Source: Inhella inkyongensis (GTDB lineage Bacteria > Pseudomonadota > Gammaproteobacteria > Burkholderiales > Burkholderiaceae_C). From it: a DNA stretch of 64,000 bases. Both the position numbers and the translations under genes were made by a program. The stretch spans positions 3,906,001 to 3,970,000 of the forward strand of contig NZ_CP040709.1 in NCBI RefSeq assembly GCF_005952805.1, given 5' to 3'. Positions 536-60,233 of this stretch are shown one piece after another. How positions within the stretch are numbered: the stretch's first letter is position 1; each line of letters starts with the position of its first letter. A model generated the notes under the pieces. The model searched no databases. It saw nothing but the letters and a program-made list of their open reading frames with translations, and was not told the origin of the DNA.

Positions 536-2514
536 GGCCAGGCACTCAGGCGGCCACTCAGGTCCTCAGCCGGGATGGGCTTGGAAAACAGATAGCCCTG
601 CTGCTGATGGCAACGTGCCGCCAGCAGGAAGTCGCGCTGGGCCTCGGTCTCCACCCCCTCGGCCACCACTTCGATGTCCAGAGCCTCGGCCAGCCCCAAG
701 ACCGCGCGCACCAGCACGCAGTCGTCAGGGTCATCGGGCAGATCGCGCACGAAGCTGCGGTCCACCTTGAGCTTTTGCGGCCGCAACAGCTTCAAGTAGG
801 CCAGCGAGGAATAGCCGGTGCCGAAATCATCCACCGCCAACGCCAGCCCCAGGCCGCGCAAGGCCTGGATGGTCTGCATGGATGACTCGGAGTCGCTCAT
901 CAAGGTGCTTTCGGTCAACTCGATGGTCAGCTCGCCCTTGCCCACGCCATAGGCACGGATCAAGTCGCCCAACTGCTCGACCAGGCGGCTGTCGCGGAAG
1001 TGCGAGGCCGACAAGTTGACCGCCACCGACCCCGGATGCCGACCCATGGACTTCCAGCGCGCCAGCTGCTGGCAGGCGGCTTCCAAGGTCCAGGCACCCA
1101 GCTCCCGGATCTGGCCGCTGTCCTCAGCCACTGGGATGAAGGTGCCGGGATAAAGCAGGCCACGCGTGGGGTGCTGCCAGCGCACCAAGGCTTCGACCGA
1201 GCCCACCGTGCCCTTGCGCGCATCCATCACCGGTTGGTAGTGCAGCACCAGTTGGCCAGCCCGAATCGCCTCGGCCAACTCGCGCTCCATCTCCAGCCGT
1301 TCGGCCAGGGCCGCATCCATATCGGCCTGGTAGAAGCTGAAGCGAGCCCGGCCACCCTGCTTGGCTTGGTACATGGCCATGTCGGCGTGGCGCACCAGCT
1401 CATCAAAGCCTTCGCCATCCTGTGGGAACAGAGCGACGCCGACGCTGGCCGACACACTGGCCTGCTGCCCACCCTGCAGCTCAAAACCCTCGGACAGCGA
1501 ACTCAGCATGCGCTGCACCGTGATCTGCACGTTCTCCAGGCTGGTGGCCTCGCGCAGCAGCAACAAGAACTCATCCCCGCTGATGCGGCAGACCAGGTCC
1601 GAACCGCGCACCGCCGCCCGCAGGCGTTCACTGACGATCAGCAGCAGCCGGTCGCCGGCCGCATGGCCCAGGGTGTCGTTGATGTTCTTGAAACGGTCCA
1701 GATCGACAAACAGCAGGGCCAACTGCTGGTTGTTGCGACGGGCAAAAGCCGCTTCGTGGGTGAAGACCTCGCGAAACAACGTGCGGTTGGGCAGCTGGGT
1801 CAGGTGGTCGTACATCGCCATCTGACGCAGTTGGGTGTTCTTGGCCTCCATGTCGGCCAGCAGCCCGTCAATCTGCTGACCGGTGTGGTTCAGGTGCTCG
1901 CCCAACTCACCCAATTCATCGCCACGGTGCCAGTCCACCGCCGGGTGCGGCTCGCGCGCCGCAATGGCACTGGCCTGGCGCTTCAAGGCCTCAATGGGCC
2001 GCACCAAGCGCCAATAGAGCACCAGCAAGATGATGGCGCCACCCAGCACCACCTGCAGGCCGACGATGGCAGCGATCTGATTGCGGCGCTCGCGCACCAG
2101 GCGCTCGGTGGCGCCGTCGTCAAAGCCCACCGTCAGCGTGCCCAGCACCACGCCCTCGCGGCGAATGGCCGAGGCCAGCAACACCGTGGGCCAGCTCTCG
2201 GCGCACTTGACACGCTTGAGCTCCTGCGCGCCGGGCCGCTCCTCAACCAGACTGACCGAGCACACACTGGCGTCGGCCAACAACTGCTCCACCGCCCGCT
2301 GCGTGGCCTGTGCATCCAGCACCCACAGGGGATCGACCAGCGAGGTCGATGCCAGGCTCAGCACCGCCGAGCGCTGACCCTCGAGGATGGGCTCGACGCT
2401 GCGCCGCATGAAGGCGTCGGACAGGGCCAAGACCACCAGGGCGGGCGCCGCGATGCCGACCACGACGGCCAACAAAATCATCTGACGCAGCGAGAGCTTG
2501 AATCGCATCGGCAT
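532..2514 (-). CDS. membrane diguanylate cyclase/phosphodiesterase (HAMP-GGDEF-EAL)
   Basis: 660 residues. TM helix about 12-33, periplasmic sensor region 34-146, second TM 147-168, HAMP about 169-222, GGDEF domain about 235-395 and EAL domain about 411-655. The cyclase signature reads SGDEF (312-316), a variant still seen in active enzymes. An RxxD inhibitory site (R303-D306) stands five residues before it. The EAL domain keeps EAL (441-443), DDFGTGYSS (562-570) and EVVAEGVET, so phosphodiesterase activity is plausible. The protein would make and/or degrade cyclic di-GMP at the inner membrane in response to a periplasmic signal. Its stop codon overlaps the start of the binding protein downstream, implying one mRNA. 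Which activity dominates cannot be told from sequence. Confidence 0.93.
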   Translation of the reverse strand: MPMRFKLSLRQMILLAVVVGIAAPALVVLALSDAFMRRSVEPILEGQRSAVLSLASTSLVDPLWVLDAQATQRAVEQLLADASVCSVSLVEERPGAQELKRVKCAESWPTVLLASAIRREGVVLGTLTVGFDDGATERLVRERRNQIAAIVGLQVVLGGAIILLVLYWRLVRPIEALKRQASAIAAREPHPAVDWHRGDELGELGEHLNHTGQQIDGLLADMEAKNTQLRQMAMYDHLTQLPNRTLFREVFTHEAAFARRNNQQLALLFVDLDRFKNINDTLGHAAGDRLLLIVSERLRAAVRGSDLVCRISGDEFLLLLREATSLENVQITVQRMLSSLSEGFELQGGQQASVSASVGVALFPQDGEGFDELVRHADMAMYQAKQGGRARFSFYQADMDAALAERLEMERELAEAIRAGQLVLHYQPVMDARKGTVGSVEALVRWQHPTRGLLYPGTFIPVAEDSGQIRELGAWTLEAACQQLARWKSMGRHPGSVAVNLSASHFRDSRLVEQLGDLIRAYGVGKGELTIELTESTLMSDSESSMQTIQALRGLGLALAVDDFGTGYSSLAYLKLLRPQKLKVDRSFVRDLPDDPDDCVLVRAVLGLAEALDIEVVAEGVETEAQRDFLLAARCHQQQGYLFSKPIPAEDLSGRLSAWP

Positions 2515-4635: not shown

Positions 4636-7582
<2,947 letters not shown>

Positions 7583-48181: not shown

Positions 48182-48976
48182 ATGCGCTTCATCACTGCCA
48201 ATCTGAACGGTGTGCGTTCAGCCGCCAGCAAAGGCTTTTTCGAGTGGCTGAGCCACCAGCGCGCCGACGCGGTGGGCGTGCAAGAGCTCAAAGCCCAGGC
48301 CGATGTGGTTGAGGAGCAGTTCCCGCGCTGCGGCCGCCTGCAAGGTGCCTTCCACTACGCCCAGAAGAAGGGCTACTCGGGCGTCGGGCTCTACACCCAT
48401 GAAGAGCCCTCGGATGTGCGGATCGGCTACGGCTCCAGCGAGTTCGATGCCGAAGGGCGCTGGGTTGAGAAGCGCTTTGACAAGCCGGGGCGCAAGCTCA
48501 GCCTGATCTCCTGCTACTTCCCCAGCGGCAGTAGTGGCGAGGAACGCCAAGCCGCCAAATTCCGCTTCCTGGCCGAGATGGCCCCCCACCTGCAGGCGCT
48601 CAAGGCCGAGCGCGAGTTCATTCTTGTGGCTGATGTGAATATCGCCCACAAGGAAATCGACTTGAAGAACTGGAAGGGCAATCTGAAGAACAGTGGCTTC
48701 CTGCCCGAGGAACGCGCCTGGCTGGATCAACTATTTGGGTCAACGGACAAAGGCGCCGGACTGGTCGATGTGTTTCGCACCCTGAACCAGAAAGAAGAGC
48801 AGTACACCTGGTGGAGCCAGCGTGGTCAGGCCTGGGCCAAAAACGTGGGCTGGCGGCTGGACTATCAAATTGCCACACCGGGACTCGCCGCGCTGGCGAA
48901 AAAAGAGAAGATCCACCTGGAGCCGCGCTTTTCGGACCATGCCCCGCTGATCATCGACTACGACTTCGAGATCTGA
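48182..48976 (+). CDS. xth: exodeoxyribonuclease III family AP endonuclease
   Basis: 264 residues. Endonuclease/exonuclease/phosphatase fold: ITANLNGVRSAASKGFFEWL, VGVQELKAQ with the metal Glu, VADVNIAHKEIDLKN with Asp/Asn, and the final RFSDHAPLIIDYD Asp-His pair. Cleaves at abasic sites in base-excision repair. Starts just behind the receptor terminator. Its TGA shares a base with the next start (TGATG). Confidence 0.95.
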   Translation: MRFITANLNGVRSAASKGFFEWLSHQRADAVGVQELKAQADVVEEQFPRCGRLQGAFHYAQKKGYSGVGLYTHEEPSDVRIGYGSSEFDAEGRWVEKRFDKPGRKLSLISCYFPSGSSGEERQAAKFRFLAEMAPHLQALKAEREFILVADVNIAHKEIDLKNWKGNLKNSGFLPEERAWLDQLFGSTDKGAGLVDVFRTLNQKEEQYTWWSQRGQAWAKNVGWRLDYQIATPGLAALAKKEKIHLEPRFSDHAPLIIDYDFEI

Positions 48977-50016
48977 TGCACCGCCGCCACGCCGTCGTCC
49001 TGCCGCTGGCCTCGCTGGCGCCGACGGCTTGGGCGGGCAAGGCGCTGCGGGTGCTGGCCTGGCCGGGCTATGCCGAGCCCGAGGTGGTGCAGGCCTTTGA
49101 GCGCGCACACGGCGTCCGGGTCGAACTCACGGTCATCGACTCCGACGAGGCTCTGTGGCAGCGCCTGCGCCGCCAGGGTGATTTCGATGTGCTGGCGATC
49201 AACACGGCCGAGCTGCAGCGCGCCGTCAACGAGGGCCTGGTTCAGGCCCTGGACGAGACCCGTCTGAAAGCCCTACCACCGCAGCTGCCACGCTTCCGCG
49301 ATGCCAGCGCGCTGCCGGGCTTGACACGCCGTCTGTCCGGTCGCCTGCAGATCTATGGCGTGCCCTTCACCTACGCAGAGATGGGCCTGATCTTCGATCG
49401 GCGCCAAATCAGCCAGCCTCCAGAGTCGATTGCGGAACTTTGGAACCCGCGCTGGCGCGGCAAGGTCTTGGGCTTTGACACCGGCGGCCACAACTTCTCG
49501 CTGGCAGCCCAGAGCTTGGGCCTGCCCAGCCCCTTCCGCCTGAGCGATGCCGACTGGCCCCGCGCCGTCGAGCGCCTGATTGCGCTGCGCCGCAATGTGC
49601 TGAGCTTTTACAGCCAGCCGGACGAAGCAACCCAGCTGTTTCGTCGTCACGGCTGCGCCTTGATGTTTGCCAATTACGGCAGCCAGCAGCTCACCAAGCT
49701 CAAACTGGCCGGCGCCGATGTGGGCTATGCGCTACCGCGCGAAGGCGCACTGGCCTGGCTGGACTGCTGGGCGCTCACCAAGGCCTGCCGCGACCCCGCG
49801 CTGGCGCACCAGTGGATCGCCCATTTGTTGGGGCCTCAAGCCAGTCGCCTGCTGGTGGAACGCCAGGGCCTGGCCAACACGGTCAGCGCCCAGGGCAGCC
49901 CGGCCGGCTCCAGCCGCTTGATCTGGCTGGAACCGGTGGAAGACGCCGCCCGCCGCGAGCGCCTGTGGGCGCGGGTGCGCTCGGGCGACCGCGCCGAACG
50001 CGTGTTGCGGCCATGA
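48976..50016 (+). CDS. PotD-like periplasmic solute-binding protein, orphan
   Basis: 346 residues. Short Arg-rich signal peptide (MHRRHAVVLPLASLAPTAWA). The body aligns by eye with polyamine-binding PotD/PotF: LRVLAWPGYAEPEVVQAFERAHGVRVELTVIDSDEALWQRL, FDVLAINTAELQRAVNEGLVQALD, VPFTYAEMGLIFDR and SIAELWNPRWRGKV. No permease or ATPase gene accompanies it. It starts in overlap with xth and is followed after 79 bases by a membrane diguanylate cyclase. Family knowledge: NspS, a PotD homologue of Vibrio cholerae, signals to the c-di-GMP enzyme MbaA instead of feeding a transporter. By analogy this protein may be a polyamine-type sensor subunit. Confidence 0.85.
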   Translation: MHRRHAVVLPLASLAPTAWAGKALRVLAWPGYAEPEVVQAFERAHGVRVELTVIDSDEALWQRLRRQGDFDVLAINTAELQRAVNEGLVQALDETRLKALPPQLPRFRDASALPGLTRRLSGRLQIYGVPFTYAEMGLIFDRRQISQPPESIAELWNPRWRGKVLGFDTGGHNFSLAAQSLGLPSPFRLSDADWPRAVERLIALRRNVLSFYSQPDEATQLFRRHGCALMFANYGSQQLTKLKLAGADVGYALPREGALAWLDCWALTKACRDPALAHQWIAHLLGPQASRLLVERQGLANTVSAQGSPAGSSRLIWLEPVEDAARRERLWARVRSGDRAERVLRP

Positions 50017-50095
50017 GCACCGCCACTCGACCGCTCCACAGGGTGTGCGTCGCTCCCTTGGGACGGGTGCCGCGCATCGCCGGGTGGGCCGGCCC

Positions 50096-51829
50096 ATGAC
50101 TCCGAGGCGCCCCGGGTCGCTGGGACTGGGCGCGCGCCTGGCGCTGGCCATGGCCTTGCTGGGCCTGCTGGCCGCCGGCCTGACCGGCTACTCCAGCTAC
50201 CGCACCAGCAGTGCAATGCTGGTGGGCGCGGCCGAGCAGCGCCTGCTCACCGCCACCCGCGTGCTCGGCCGGCAACTCAGTGTCGAACTGGTGGACGTCT
50301 CCCGCGATCTGCTGATGCTGGCCGAGCACCCTGCGGTGGCCAATCTGCTGATGCGCAGCGATCCGTCGATTCAACAGCGCCTGGAGGACAACGTGGCGCT
50401 GCTGTTGCAGCGTCTGGTGGAGACCCACCCCGAGTACTTTCAGATGCGCCTGATCGACGCCGAGGCCCATGGCCTGGAACGCCTGCGTGTGGACCGCCAC
50501 CCGCAAGGCGTTCTGCGCGTGGTGGGCGACGAGCTGCAGGAAAAAGGGCATCTGCCCTATGTGCTGGAGACCTTGGGCTTGGTGCGCGGCTCGATCTATA
50601 TGTCACCGGCCCGCATCAACCACGAAACCGGCAGCCACGCCGGCGTTGAGCGACCCACGCTTCAGATGGCCACCCCGGTGTTTGATGCCCAGCAAAAGGT
50701 GCGCGGCGTGGTGGTCATCAATCTGGACCTGGAAGGCCTGTTCCGTCAGCTGGCTGCCGATCTACCGCCCGATCTGCGCCTGTTCCTGATCAATACCGAG
50801 GGCGACTACCTGATCCACCCCGAGCCGCGCCAGGCCTTTGCCTTTGATCGCGGTCAGCGGGCCCGCGTGCAGGATGAGTTCGGTGACAGCGCGGCGCTGT
50901 TTGAGGGCAGCAGCCCGGCGCAAGACGTGCTGGCCCGCAGCGCCCCCGGCAGCACGCCGGGTCTGCTTGCCGCCTTCGTGCGGCAACCCGATACCGGACT
51001 GAGGCTCCAGCACAGCTTCATCCTGGGCTTGGCCCAGTCGATGGACGCCATCGAGCACGAAGCCCGGCAGCTGGCGCTGAGCACCCTGCGGCTGGTGGCC
51101 GTCTTTGGGGCGCTGGCCATGCTCGCTGCGGTGCTGCTGGCGCGAGCCTTGGTGCAGCCACTGAACCGCATCGTCCAGGCCCTGGCCGACTTTGCCGAGG
51201 GCCGCGGCGGCGGCGAGTTGCCCGTGAAACGGCATGACGAGGTCGGCGCCCTGGCGCGCGGCGTGCAGGCCATGCAGCAGCAGGTCATGAACCGCTTTGG
51301 CCAATTGGAGGCGCAGCAACGCGAGATGGGCCATCTGGCCAGCCACGACAGCCTGACCGGCCTGCTCAACCGCCGCGTGTTCCTCGATCGCCTGGACCAC
51401 GCGCTGGCTCATGCCAAGCGCAGCCAGGGCGAGCTGGCCCTGCTGTTCATCGACCTGGATCACTTCAAGCAGATCAACGATCAATACGGCCACGCCGCCG
51501 GCGATCAAGTCTTGCTGACCGTGGCCCAACGCCTGCACGGCATGGTGCGCGAGGCCGACACCGTGGCCCGCATCGGCGGCGATGAGTTCATCGTGCTGCT
51601 GGATGGGGGCCACGACGACGCAGCCATACAGCGCGTGGCCGACAAGCTGCTGGCCGCGCTGGCCGAGCCCATCGCCTATGCCCAGCAGGCTCTGCAATGC
51701 GGTGGCAGCATCGGCATCAGCCGCTATCCGCACGATGGCCAGACCGCCGCCGACCTGATCGCCGCGGCCGACCGCGGCATGTACCGCGCGAAGACGGGCG
51801 GGCGGCAGCGGGCCGAGTTTTCCGCGTAG
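50096..51829 (+). CDS. membrane diguanylate cyclase (Cache-like sensor, HAMP, GGDEF)
   Basis: 577 residues. TM1 about 12-32, a large periplasmic domain about 33-328 of double-Cache type (PEYFQMRLIDAEAHGLERLRVDR, MSPARINHETG, MATPVFDAQQKVRGVVVINLDL), TM2 about 331-350, HAMP about 351-405, and GGDEF domain about 412-577. The active site GGDEF is intact at 494-498, with an RxxD inhibitory site at R485-D488. No EAL domain, so a c-di-GMP producer. Start ATG 50096 gives a short tail before TM1; GTG 50045 is an alternative. Runs in the same direction as the PotD-like gene. Confidence 0.94.
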   Translation: MTPRRPGSLGLGARLALAMALLGLLAAGLTGYSSYRTSSAMLVGAAEQRLLTATRVLGRQLSVELVDVSRDLLMLAEHPAVANLLMRSDPSIQQRLEDNVALLLQRLVETHPEYFQMRLIDAEAHGLERLRVDRHPQGVLRVVGDELQEKGHLPYVLETLGLVRGSIYMSPARINHETGSHAGVERPTLQMATPVFDAQQKVRGVVVINLDLEGLFRQLAADLPPDLRLFLINTEGDYLIHPEPRQAFAFDRGQRARVQDEFGDSAALFEGSSPAQDVLARSAPGSTPGLLAAFVRQPDTGLRLQHSFILGLAQSMDAIEHEARQLALSTLRLVAVFGALAMLAAVLLARALVQPLNRIVQALADFAEGRGGGELPVKRHDEVGALARGVQAMQQQVMNRFGQLEAQQREMGHLASHDSLTGLLNRRVFLDRLDHALAHAKRSQGELALLFIDLDHFKQINDQYGHAAGDQVLLTVAQRLHGMVREADTVARIGGDEFIVLLDGGHDDAAIQRVADKLLAALAEPIAYAQQALQCGGSIGISRYPHDGQTAADLIAAADRGMYRAKTGGRQRAEFSA

Positions 51830-51843
51830 CGCGGCTCGCGGCT

Positions 51844-53127
51844 TTATTCCTCCCAGTCGAAGCGCCACCATGCCAGCAGGCCGCACAGCAGACTGGCCCC
51901 CAGCAGCACCCCACACGGCGCCCACGCCGCCTCCAGGCCCAGGCCGCGCCAGGTCATGGCGTCCAGCCCATCCACCGCCCAGCGGGTCGGCATGGCCAGG
52001 GTGACGGTCTGCAGCCACTCTGGGAATACAAAGCTGGGCACCCAGGCGCCGCCCAACATCACCATCAGCAAGGTGGCCAGGATGGCCATACCGCGCGTGG
52101 CCTCGGGGTTGCGGCCCAGCGCGGCCACCAGCAGACCGAAGCTGGCGGTGAACAGCGCAAAGCTCACCAGCAACAAGGCGAAGCCGATCCCACTGCCCAG
52201 CACACGCACCCCGAAGACCGCCATGCCGGCGAGCATGATGAGCACAAAGCTGAACAGAGCAATCAGGGCGGTGCTGAGCACGCGGCTCCCCAGCAGGGTG
52301 CCGCGCGACAACGGGGCCGCACGCAGGCGCTTCCACAGGTCCTGGCGCCGCATCAGCAACAGGGCCACGGCCATCTCCACCCCCAGCATCAAGATGAACT
52401 GCACCCCCATGCCGGCAAAAGAGTGGGCATAGCCGTTGTAGCCCGCCTCTTGGCCCTTGGCGGTGACCTCGTGCTCCTGCAATGCAAAGGGCGAACGCAG
52501 GCCCTGGCCCACACCCTCCGTCCCCTCTCCCCCTGCAGCACTGCGGGCCTGCACCTTGGCCACGCTGTCGAACAACTGCGCCAGTTCGGCCCGCTGCTCG
52601 GTGGGCATGTCAGCCTGGGCCGCTTGCTCGCGCAAGCGCTGCCAGTTGGCGCCCTGCGGGCTCATGGCACTGCGGCTGACCTCGGCCATCAAGTGCTGCG
52701 TCAGCAGCCCCTGCACCAGGGCCAGGGTGCTGCGCTGCGAAGGGTCGATGTGCAGCGCCAACTGCGGCTGCGGGCCGGCGCCAAACAGAGCCAAACCGGC
52801 CTGCTCGCCAAAGCCTTTGGGCAAGATCAGGGCCGCCCGCAGGGTGCCTCGACGCACAGCCTCCAAGGCCGGCTCCGGCGCCAGCCTCTGCAGGCTCAAG
52901 TGCGGCTCGGCCGCCAACACGGTCAACAAGCGGTGGCTCAGCGCACTGTCGTCCTGATCCACCACGGCCAGCGGCACCGGGGCCGGCTTGCCCGAAGGCT
53001 TGCCGCCGAACAAGCTGCCGAAAAAGGCCGCGATCAAGATGGGCGCCAGCAAATTGATCAGCAGCGCGCGCCGATTGCCCAGGTACTGCAACAGATCCTT
53101 GCGGACCAGACTCATCAAGGCAGTCAT
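51844..53127 (-). CDS. ABC-2 type exporter permease
   Basis: 427 residues. N-terminal TM helix (RALLINLLAPILIAAFFGSLFGG), a soluble loop about 45-215 (VPLAVVDQDDSALSHRLL, LRAALILPKGFGEQ), then five helices (FILMLGVEMAVALLLM, FSFVLIMLAGMAVFGV, FALLLVSFALFTASFGLLVAAL, ILATLLMVMLGGAW). This is the ABC2_membrane_3 layout of drug or lipid exporters. Its start overlaps the ATPase stop by one base. Cargo unknown. Confidence 0.92.
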   Translation of the reverse strand: MTALMSLVRKDLLQYLGNRRALLINLLAPILIAAFFGSLFGGKPSGKPAPVPLAVVDQDDSALSHRLLTVLAAEPHLSLQRLAPEPALEAVRRGTLRAALILPKGFGEQAGLALFGAGPQPQLALHIDPSQRSTLALVQGLLTQHLMAEVSRSAMSPQGANWQRLREQAAQADMPTEQRAELAQLFDSVAKVQARSAAGGEGTEGVGQGLRSPFALQEHEVTAKGQEAGYNGYAHSFAGMGVQFILMLGVEMAVALLLMRRQDLWKRLRAAPLSRGTLLGSRVLSTALIALFSFVLIMLAGMAVFGVRVLGSGIGFALLLVSFALFTASFGLLVAALGRNPEATRGMAILATLLMVMLGGAWVPSFVFPEWLQTVTLAMPTRWAVDGLDAMTWRGLGLEAAWAPCGVLLGASLLCGLLAWWRFDWEE

Positions 53128-54065
53128 CAGCGCATCTCCCCATCGCGCAGCGCGCGTCCGGTCAGGGACAAGAACACATCCTCCAAGCTGGCCCGGGCGC
53201 TGTGCACCTGCTGCACGCCACAGCCCGCCAGGGCCTGCAGCAAGCCCGCCGCGGCCAGGTCCAGATTGCTCAGCCCCACCTGCAACTGCAATCCCTCGCA
53301 GCGCAGGCTCAGCACGCCGGGCAGCGCGCGCAGGGCCGCCACGTCAGGGGGCGCACTCAGCTGCAGGCTCAGGGTCTGGGCCACCGGCAGCTGCGCCAAC
53401 AACTCAGGCAGGCGCCCCTCGGCCACCACCTGACCGTGGTCGATGATGACGATGCGATCCGCCAGACGCTCGGCCTCCTCCATGTAATGGGTGGTGTAGA
53501 TCAGCGCCTTGCCCTGACGTTTGAGTTGTTCCAGCAGCTCAAAGATGGCGTTGCGGCTGTGCGGGTCCACGCCGGCCGTGGGCTCGTCCAGCAAGATCAG
53601 ATCCGGGTCGTGCATCAGCGCGCCGGCGATGTTCAGACGACGCTTCATACCGCCACTGAAGTGGGCCGGCTTGTCCTTGGCCCGCTCGCTCAAGCCCACC
53701 CAAGCCAGCAGCGCGTCGGCGCGGGCTGTGGCCGATGCGCGATCCAGGCCGTAGAGCCCCCCCAGCACCTGCAGATTGGTGCGCGCGCTCAAGTCCTCAA
53801 ACAGCGCGATCTCTTGCGGCACCAGGCCGATGCGGCGCTTGGCGCTGTCGGTTGCCTGATCCAGCGCCGCGCCCGCCACCCGCACCTGTCCGGCATCCGG
53901 GCGCAACAGACCGCTGACCATCCCGACCGTGCTGGACTTGCCCGCCCCATTGGGCCCCAACAGAGCCACCAACTCGCCAGCCCGCACCTGCAGACTGACC
54001 GCCTGCACCGCCACGCGCTCGCCATACCGCTTGTGCAGGCCCTGGGCCTCCAACACCGTGTCCAT
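53127..54065 (-). CDS. ABC exporter ATP-binding protein
   Basis: 312 residues. Walker A GPNGAGKSS, Q-loop LVPQEIALF, signature FSGGMKRRLNIAGAL, Walker B LILLDEPTAGVDP, H-loop TTHYMEEAERLADR, followed by a C-terminal accessory domain of about 80 residues. DrrA/NodI-like ATPase powering the adjacent permease. The signature starts with Phe-Ser rather than Leu-Ser, which is common in this subfamily. Confidence 0.94.
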   Translation of the reverse strand: MDTVLEAQGLHKRYGERVAVQAVSLQVRAGELVALLGPNGAGKSSTVGMVSGLLRPDAGQVRVAGAALDQATDSAKRRIGLVPQEIALFEDLSARTNLQVLGGLYGLDRASATARADALLAWVGLSERAKDKPAHFSGGMKRRLNIAGALMHDPDLILLDEPTAGVDPHSRNAIFELLEQLKRQGKALIYTTHYMEEAERLADRIVIIDHGQVVAEGRLPELLAQLPVAQTLSLQLSAPPDVAALRALPGVLSLRCEGLQLQVGLSNLDLAAAGLLQALAGCGVQQVHSARASLEDVFLSLTGRALRDGEMR

Positions 54066-58663: not shown

Positions 58664-59425
58664 ATGCCGATCCAGTTCGCCCGCCAGCTGACCGGCTCGA
58701 GGCGCAGCATCCAGGCGGACCGCCGCTTGGGCTGGTTGTTGGCCTTCGTAGCTGGCGCATTAAATGCCGGTGGCTTTCTGGCGGTGCGGCAGTACACATC
58801 ACACGTGACCGGGAGTCTGTCCTCGGCCGCCGACCATGCCGTGCTGGGGCACTGGGACTTGGTGGCAGATGGCGTGATCGCCGTGTTGGCCTTCTTGTTA
58901 GGCGCCCTGTGCTGCGCCCTGTTGGTGAACTTGGCGAGGCGCCGCCAATTGCGCAGCGAGTTCGCCATCGTGCTGCTGCTGGAGGCCGGTCTCATTCTGC
59001 TTTTTGGCCTGATGGGCGCCTGGCTCTCGCACCACGAGACCCTGTTTGTGCCCATGACGGTGCTGCTGCTGTGCTTCATCATGGGGCTGCAGAACGCCGT
59101 CATCACCAAGCTGTCCAATGCCGTCATCCGCACCACGCACATGACCGGAGTCGTCACCGATCTGGGCATCGAGCTGGGTCGGCTGCTTTATGTCAATCGA
59201 CGCGAACTGCCCGGCCTGGAGGTGCGCGCGGATCGGACCCGGCTGCGGGTGTTGGCCGGTCTGCTGGCGGCGTTCTCTGGCGGCGGCCTGGTCGGCGCCT
59301 GGGGCTTTGACCGCCATGGCTATGTCTCCACCCTGCCGCTGGCCGCGCTGGTGGCCGCGCTCGCTCTGATGCCGGCCCTGGATGATGTTCGCCAATGGCT
59401 GAAGGCGGCGCCCCCCCATGACTGA
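58664..59425 (+). CDS. DUF1275 (YoaK-type) membrane protein
   Basis: 253 residues, six to seven TM helices. LLAFVAGALNAGGFLAVRQYTSHVTGSLSSAADH and GLQNAVITKLSNAVIRTTHMTGVVTDLGIELG are the two DUF1275 signature segments. Function unknown. Its end overlaps the start of the methyltransferase-fold gene by 8 bases. Confidence 0.9.
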   Translation: MPIQFARQLTGSRRSIQADRRLGWLLAFVAGALNAGGFLAVRQYTSHVTGSLSSAADHAVLGHWDLVADGVIAVLAFLLGALCCALLVNLARRRQLRSEFAIVLLLEAGLILLFGLMGAWLSHHETLFVPMTVLLLCFIMGLQNAVITKLSNAVIRTTHMTGVVTDLGIELGRLLYVNRRELPGLEVRADRTRLRVLAGLLAAFSGGGLVGAWGFDRHGYVSTLPLAALVAALALMPALDDVRQWLKAAPPHD

Positions 59426-60233
59426 ACGAAGCCACGACGACCTTGACGAGCCGGACACCTTTGAGGCGGCACCCGGCCCGGCTCTGCCTGTCCCCTATGT
59501 GGTGAAGACGGCGGCCAGCCTGTCGCTGCACTTCTCCTTTGCGGCCACGCAAAGCCGCATGGACCTGCGGCACCCCGACCGACTGACCTTGGCCTACACC
59601 CGCACCATGATGGGCTTCCTGCTGTTCTCGGCGCAGGCTCGGCGCATTGCCATGATCGGCCTGGGCGGCGGTTCCCTGGTTCGCTTCATGCTGGCCCACT
59701 TGCCGGAGGTGGAGCTGAAGGTGGTAGAGAACAACGCCGAGGTGCTGGAATTGCGCCAGACCTTTTTGCTGCCGGCCGACGACGAACGCTTCAAGGTCAG
59801 GCTGGCTGATGGCGCGGAGTTCGTGCGCGATCCCCCGCGCCACTTCGACGCGCTGCTGGTGGATGCCTTTGATGGCAATGGTCAGCCCGAGGCCTTGGCG
59901 ACGCGGACCTTCTACCAAGACTGCCGGGACACGCTGACCGATGAGGGCGTGCTGGCCGTGAATCTATGCCCCGGGTTTGCAGACTTCGAGCCCCAACTGG
60001 AGCGCCTGCGTCAGGTGTTCGATGAGCAGGTGCTGGTGGTCACTGATGTTGAATGCAGCAACGCCATCGCCTTTGCCACCCAGGGTGACTTGCTGGCGCA
60101 GTTTGAACGCCATGGCTGGCGTTGGCGCGACCGGCTGGCCGACGCGCCGCGCAAGCAGCTGATGCCCGCCCTGGTGGGCGTGAGCCGCACCCTGCAGCGG
60201 TTTCGAACTCACTCGTCCAGCATCAATACATAG
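59418..60233 (+). CDS. spermidine synthase-like protein (Rossmann methyltransferase fold)
   Basis: 271 residues. IAMIGLGGGSLVRFMLAHLPEVELKVVENNAEV forms the nucleoside-binding loop. FDALLVDAFDGNGQPEALATRTFY is the equivalent of the aminopropyltransferase active-site loop. It lacks the usual N-terminal beta-sheet domain of true SpeE, so polyamine synthesis is possible but unproven. Coupled to the DUF1275 gene. Its last 25 bases overlap the convergent amylase gene. Confidence 0.8.
   Translation: MTERSHDDLDEPDTFEAAPGPALPVPYVVKTAASLSLHFSFAATQSRMDLRHPDRLTLAYTRTMMGFLLFSAQARRIAMIGLGGGSLVRFMLAHLPEVELKVVENNAEVLELRQTFLLPADDERFKVRLADGAEFVRDPPRHFDALLVDAFDGNGQPEALATRTFYQDCRDTLTDEGVLAVNLCPGFADFEPQLERLRQVFDEQVLVVTDVECSNAIAFATQGDLLAQFERHGWRWRDRLADAPRKQLMPALVGVSRTLQRFRTHSSSINT

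Follow-up and report, generated by a model that had tools for sequence, protein, structure and literature searches.

We examined two adjacent genes in a 64,000-nucleotide stretch of Inhella inkyongensis DNA (contig NZ_CP040709.1, positions 3,906,001 to 3,970,000; the window), the first encoding a solute-binding protein (SBP) of the PotD/PotF fold and the second a membrane diguanylate cyclase (DGC). A preliminary description of the sequence had proposed that this pair connects polyamines to cyclic di-GMP (c-di-GMP). Our analysis favours, with a probability of about 0.64, a dedicated two-protein receptor formed by the SBP and the DGC, with a ligand that is probably not a canonical polyamine. The principal features, in window coordinates, are as follows (handles beginning with L or G denote loci and genomes of this analysis).

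48976 to 50016, + strand: orphan PotD/PotF-fold SBP, 346 amino acids (Pfam, PDB relatives, AlphaFold2 and Foldseek)
49060 to 49071, + strand: pocket residues W29-P30-G31-Y32, equivalent to PotF W37-S38-D39-Y40; the Trp and Tyr are retained, the acid that binds the amine is not
49489 to 49491, + strand: H172, at the position of PotF E185 and PotD E171; His in 104/106 sequences
49672 to 49689, + strand: loop N233-Y-G-x-Q-Q238, in place of PotF W244-A-G-D247; N233, G235, Q237 and Q238 in 106/106
49756 to 49764, + strand: W261-L-D263, kept from PotD W255/D257
50096 to 51829, + strand: membrane DGC, 577 amino acids (Pfam, AlphaFold2)
50213 to 51070, + strand: periplasmic dCache sensor domain, residues 40-325 (structure match)
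51134 to 51283, + strand: HAMP domain, residues 347-396 (Pfam)
51338 to 51811, + strand: GGDEF domain, residues 415-572, with RxxD at 485-488 (I-site) and GGDEF at 494-498

The SBP gene starts at an ATG at 48976 that overlaps the stop codon of the upstream exonuclease-like gene and ends at 50016; residues ~1-20 of its product look, by eye, like an N-terminal signal-like segment. The protein matched Pfam SBP_bac_8 (E 1.4e-24), its closest solved relatives are mostly PotD/PotF-type polyamine binders, and a Foldseek search with its AlphaFold2 (AF2) model (mean predicted local distance difference test, pLDDT, 90.5) placed PotF and PotD at the top, at 18-24% identity across the top 20 rows. Domain match, structural relatives and model thus agree on a solute-binding fold of the PotD/PotF group. 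Against the NCBIfam PotD/PotF equivalog cut-offs of 582 and 636 bits the protein scored 57 and 56. No second PotD-type SBP was found in the organism's own genome (4.08 Mb, single contig), where this protein was the sole match at E<=1e-3; the remaining two PF13416 places correspond to one MalE and one protein weakly like 2-aminoethylphosphonate binders.

The DGC gene begins after a 79-base gap. Its product has hydrophobic stretches around residues 11-29 and 331-349 with the dCache domain between them, and this double-Cache fold between two membrane helices identifies it as a dCache receptor. In the sensor, PF21623 scored above its Pfam cut-off and dCache_1 below (34.6 vs 45 bits), and the sensor stretch alone matched no PDB sequence; a conserved motif lies around L147-Q-E-K-x-H152. 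The AF2 model has a mean pLDDT of 89.2 and a predicted TM-score (pTM) of 0.60. The GG[DE]EF active site is intact, and Pfam gave no EAL match in this protein.

The pairing of the two genes is widely conserved. A contig scan with a nine-sequence SBP alignment returned 428 relatives, and in 79 of the best-scoring 80 a DGC homologue lay directly downstream of the SBP, the only locus where none was observed having its SBP at a contig edge (L083). Sensor matches fell within a narrow start window in 63 of these loci and in frames that start upstream and overlap the SBP in 16 more; two loci counted among the 79 have the DGC split in two frames (L077, L132). An order-level sample of 399 genomes (E<=1e-40, own genome included) contained 16 with both genes, always side by side, 11 with the SBP only, none with the DGC only and 372 with neither, giving a Fisher p of 9e-22 for co-occurrence when relatedness is ignored. 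In a second sample of 80 genomes (SBP at least 49% identity, DGC sensor at least 42%, own genome included), nine had both, one the SBP alone (G051), none the DGC alone and 70 neither; the genes were adjacent in all nine, the SBP frame being split in G031, and sensor matches at 27-34% in five other genomes were left uncounted. Since the own genome carries 53 GGDEF matches, a single adjacency proves little, and it is the conservation in 79/80 loci that carries the case. Among the named hosts are Zoogloea, Thauera, Sideroxydans, Gallionella, Rhodoferax, Aquabacterium, Roseateles, Pseudogulbenkiania, Vogesella, Pseudomonas citronellolis and P. alcaligenes, and of four Burkholderia matches in the plasmid collection the two that were inspected (B. 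cenocepacia and B. multivorans) both contained the pair. Partner swapping in distant members of the class was considered and rejected: 369 genomes held no family member beyond the own genome, and no GGDEF match was present in the 1.5-kb flanks of 29 out-of-family SBP loci.

The partner proteins share one architecture. All 78 DGCs scanned carried PF21623, HAMP and GGDEF, and none carried EAL (Pfam). Among 93 partners the active-site motif was GGDEF in 85, GGDEY in five and GGEEF, SGDEF and HGDEF in one each, and RxxD stood at the usual spacing in 85. One member of the order-level sample, L200 (G617:C10), has a natural GGDEF-EAL fusion as its partner. The five GGDEY partners (L194-L198) come from genomes of one genus code, and their activity is uncertain. 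In two further genomes (G071, G079), remote homologues of the sensor, at 32-34%, occur within long frames (924 and 1524 codons), which may encode other receptor types built on the same sensor.

In a FastTree phylogeny of 106 SBPs and four outgroups, the 95 DGC-linked SBPs formed one clade (support 0.913; two tips are duplicates, L192 = L079 and L193 = L065), and the 11 unlinked SBPs fell outside it, with weak internal support. Residues D141, Q144, R206 and D338 of the SBP distinguish linked from unlinked proteins. Across 90 loci, a set without L200 and the duplicates L192 and L193, SBP distances correlated at 0.81 with those of the sensor domain and at 0.71 with those of the GGDEF domain. The partial correlation between SBP and sensor given GGDEF was 0.61, a value that none of 999 permutations reached. 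Covariation beyond that shared with GGDEF suggests contact between the two proteins.

Consistent junctions and variable surroundings mark the pair as a two-gene module. Under the start rule of this analysis, SBP stop and DGC start share an ATGA in 77/92 loci and all 92 junctions lie within -30 to +20 bp, a set that leaves out the window, L077, L083 and L132. Gene clustering in flanks of up to 6 kb around 80 loci recovered the DGC at 76 loci and the SBP at 61, figures subject to gene-calling limits, and no other recurrent neighbour, the next gene family occurring in 8/80. Searches with the Pot proteins of E. coli found a PotB/C-type permease near one of 89 family SBPs (L029, 50 bits) and any ATP-binding cassette (ABC) match near 18, the 89 loci including six duplicates. 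By comparison, Pot ABC genes lay within 1.5 kb of 36/45 out-of-family SBPs (13/16 and 23/29), over control flanks much shorter than those of the family loci and with L021, the other half of the split G031 SBP, dropped. The SBP in the window has no linked ABC permease and ATPase genes of the PotD/PotF kind; genes that by eye resemble an exporter-type permease and ATPase occupy 51844-54065 on the - strand, downstream of the DGC and convergent with it, and are not matched to the SBP. The preliminary description was therefore right about a PotD/PotF-like SBP without ABC genes of its kind beside it and about a GGDEF membrane protein 79 bases on with a periplasmic domain and an intact active site, and two checks it had set for the sensor-pair idea, linkage to the cyclase and recurring permease or ATPase genes, came out in its favour in the loci examined.

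Two further features adjoin the pair:

48182 to 48976, + strand: exonuclease III-like gene (presumably xth), its stop overlapping the SBP start; outside the conserved module
50013 to 50099, + strand: open frame of 28 codons that spans the gap from SBP stop to DGC start, with ATGA overlap at both ends

The exonuclease-like gene was discarded as a module component: of nine family loci, L028 alone has it next to the SBP, and in L030 the two are 1.75 kb apart. The 28-codon frame may be a relic of coupling or a chance occurrence; most relatives have a direct SBP-DGC overlap instead. L029 has another GGDEF gene directly upstream of the SBP (4770-6485, - strand), with a product 34% identical over 412 residues, so that the SBP sits between two GGDEF genes. 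Further GGDEF matches lie at about 1345-1818 (- strand) in the window and just beyond its end. The SBP-only relatives are L035 and L181-L190; searching these 11 loci, each 17-19 kb long, with the DGC gave a single GGDEF frame, which lies in L189 at a distance of about 4 kb from the SBP. A pot-type operon with its own SBP-like gene lies about 3.4 kb from the SBP in L181 and L190, and L035 and L189 have in common a protein of 744-760 amino acids encoded about 3 kb from the SBP.

We next compared the ligand pocket with those of PotF and PotD, using positions from PMC8666671, which reports PotF D247, D278, E185 and D39 as conserved at >=96% in 250 PotF homologues. Across 81 family sequences D39 is replaced by Gly (81), E185 by His (80), W244 by Asn (81), S85 by Asn (81) and Y314 by Leu (81); W37 and D278 are kept (81), and F276 is Trp as in PotD. 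The D247 position is ambiguous, corresponding to Q238 in one alignment and to residue 236 (mostly Thr, Ser or Met) in the other. Of the amine-coordinating carboxylates D39, E185, D247 and D278, only D278 remains. These replacements are nearly invariant, the 11 unlinked SBPs included (H172 in 104/106; N76, N233, Q238 and L299 in 106/106), and this suggests a ligand that has changed but is itself conserved. Two acids, D57 (106/106) and E79 (94/95 linked), are invariant or nearly so and new relative to PotD/PotF. In a control set of 24 out-of-family SBPs, made up of PotD and PotF of E. coli and 22 proteins of other genomes, the D39 position was D/E in 14 and G in 7, the E185 position D/E in 17, the D247 position D in 18, the W244 position W in 15 and the D278 position D in 24. 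Compared with PotD and PotF, the family thus retains the fold, part of the aromatic box and the D257/D278 aspartate, and differs in lacking a linked transporter and in the replacement of most amine-binding acids. Judged from these residues, a canonical polyamine is an improbable ligand.

The sister group of the family (support 1.0) is represented in the tree by two plasmid-encoded ABC binding proteins, from Rhizobium (L206) and Phaeobacter (L207). They share G31, Y212, Q238, W265, W280, T302, E322 and R327 with the family, and differ from it in belonging to a complete ABC operon and in having other residues at N76, H172 and L299. Around them lie RbsD/FucU, aldo/keto reductase and MR/MLE dehydratase genes, an amidohydrolase gene whose product is similar to L-fuconolactonase (E 1.8e-69), and a gene for a hydrolase similar to 2,4-didehydro-3-deoxy-L-rhamnonate hydrolase (E 3.5e-129); by annotation, the same RbsD/FucU cluster occurs on two further Rhizobium plasmids. 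Both the pocket and the sister group are more compatible with a neutral or zwitterionic polar ligand, which might be a deoxysugar or sugar acid, than with a polyamine. Related ABC systems beside fucose/rhamnose-type genes were seen on Rhizobium/Phaeobacter plasmids in L206, L207, L211 and L212, two of these plasmids being typed as conjugative.

Binding proteins that act through c-di-GMP enzymes have precedents. In Vibrio parahaemolyticus, the periplasmic SBP-like protein ScrB is encoded with the GGDEF-EAL membrane protein ScrC in a three-gene operon. NspS-MbaA, a device of the kind proposed here, is described from Vibrio cholerae and Sinorhizobium meliloti (PMC9993111, PMC8079147) and was found in 222/16,076 genomes (PMC9993111). 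Both MbaA proteins have SGDEF, lack RxxD and contain an EAL or EVL motif (PMC9993111, PMC8079147). NspS contacts norspermidine through residues that include W41, Y233, D236, W261 and D263, as well as D70, D90 and F131 (PMC9993111). In both systems the gene for a PotD-fold SBP immediately precedes, and usually overlaps, that for a membrane c-di-GMP enzyme in which a periplasmic sensor is combined with HAMP. In contrast, the present pair has a GGDEF-only output (except L200, whose layout is the closest to MbaA), RxxD in most partners and a periplasmic part of about 300 residues against 233 (24-256) in S. meliloti MbaA, judging from the published descriptions of NspS-MbaA. Placing the NspS equivalents W29, N233, Q238 or residue 236, W261 and D263 by spacing, without alignment to NspS, leaves three of five contacts kept (W41, W261 and D263) and Y233 and D236 replaced. 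In Salmonella, STM1987, a c-di-GMP enzyme with a Cache-type (dCache_1) sensor, needs the periplasmic SBP ArtI to respond (PMC8846402). Dependence of a dCache c-di-GMP enzyme on an SBP is the common element, whereas ArtI is a putative L-arginine-binding protein. ArtI is part of a transporter, and its gene is not known to be linked to STM1987. The preliminary description had called the pair a distinct architecture, which holds insofar as EAL is lacking in the scanned partners and gives way before the GGDEF-EAL fusion of L200 and the ArtI-STM1987 precedent for a Cache-type sensor. No earlier description of the SBP-DGC pair appeared among the titles and abstract openings listed in a search of open-licence literature.

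Several observations weigh against a dedicated receptor for a non-polyamine ligand. The best 80 of the 428 loci are biased towards close relatives, and permutations do not remove shared ancestry from the covariation. In addition, 11/27 family genomes of the order-level sample have the SBP without the DGC and nearly the same pocket, so that the SBP may work without the DGC. With regard to the ligand, the control SBPs vary at the amine-binding positions more than the published PotF set, and an amine might yet be bound through the new acids D57 and E79. L206 and L207 are just 30-32% identical to the family and differ from it at three of its invariant or nearly invariant positions, the sugar-gene matches near them are all below equivalog cut-offs, and a tyramine oxidase is encoded about 3.4 kb upstream in L207 and an aminotransferase beside the SBP in L212. 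Because of this low identity, the sub-cut-off matches and the nearby amine and amino-acid genes, the case for a sugar is weak, and we regard a sugar-like ligand as a lead and not a result.

The preliminary description's own proposal, that the SBP binds putrescine- or spermidine-type ligands as NspS does and thereby controls the DGC, now appears unlikely. It would account for the fold and the nearest solved structures and for the retention of W29, Y32, W261 and D263; D57 and E79 could supply other carboxylates, NspS itself has the contacts D70 and D90 as specific features (PMC9993111), and the amine-binding positions vary in the controls too. Set against this are the loss, in 80 or 81 of 81 members, of W244 from the aromatic box and of three of four key carboxylates, the loss of Y233 and D236 among the contacts placed by spacing, and the sugar-type clusters around the sister SBPs. 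The spermidine-synthase-like gene to which the preliminary description pointed is present (59418-60233; Spermine_synth, 44 bits). It is separated by 7.6 kb from the end of the DGC and by 9.4 kb from the SBP, and it falls below four NCBIfam equivalog cut-offs (best 198 vs 304 bits) while just passing one subfamily cut-off, for fused major facilitator superfamily (MFS)/spermidine synthases (41 vs 40); distance and score led us to reject it as evidence for polyamines.

Two other explanations concern the partnership itself. Some SBPs work with unlinked permeases, and the orphan SBP might likewise feed an ABC permease encoded elsewhere, its adjacency to the DGC reflecting co-regulation instead of contact. 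The 11 SBP-only genomes, two of them with the nearby pot-type operons described above, and 18 unclassified PF00528 permease places in the own genome are compatible with this, but the sensor domain co-varies with the SBP, the DGC never occurred without the SBP at the thresholds used in the 80- and 399-genome samples, and no permease recurs beside the pair, which makes this explanation improbable. Alternatively, the dCache domain might sense its own ligand directly, as dCache domains often do, with the SBP just a modulator or buffer. The conserved sensor motif around L147-Q-E-K-x-H152 would suit such direct sensing, which nevertheless leaves the absence of SBP-less DGCs from both genome samples unexplained, and we give it little credence.

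A co-receptor of the NspS-MbaA kind is therefore a well-supported prediction from gene order and sequence conservation, and we propose that the pair is a variant among the c-di-GMP receptors coupled to an SBP, its ligand probably being something other than a polyamine and possibly resembling a sugar. For docking, the direction of control and the effect on c-di-GMP, we infer the following course: the secreted SBP would capture a small ligand in the periplasm, or release it, and in one of its states, open or closed, would dock on the dCache domain of the co-translated DGC, and the signal would pass through the second transmembrane helix and HAMP to the GGDEF dimer, changing c-di-GMP output either up or down. 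A more far-reaching version can be offered only tentatively, namely that the pairs form a separate, widespread class, centred on beta-proteobacteria and reaching some Pseudomonas, which had a single origin in a sugar-type ABC binding protein that was left without its transporter and became tied to a dCache DGC, and which reports a deoxysugar or sugar acid and not a polyamine. If so, external carbohydrate would be linked to attachment and biofilm decisions.

The signals for most diguanylate cyclases are unknown, and a fixed SBP-DGC pair would offer a soluble protein as a handle for finding the signal of a DGC. As a GGDEF-only system, the pair may also serve as a compact model for the control of a dCache receptor by a binding protein. 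It is present in many environmental beta-proteobacteria, in P. citronellolis and P. alcaligenes and in the two Burkholderia replicons examined, and it cautions that annotation as 'PotD-like' does not imply polyamines.

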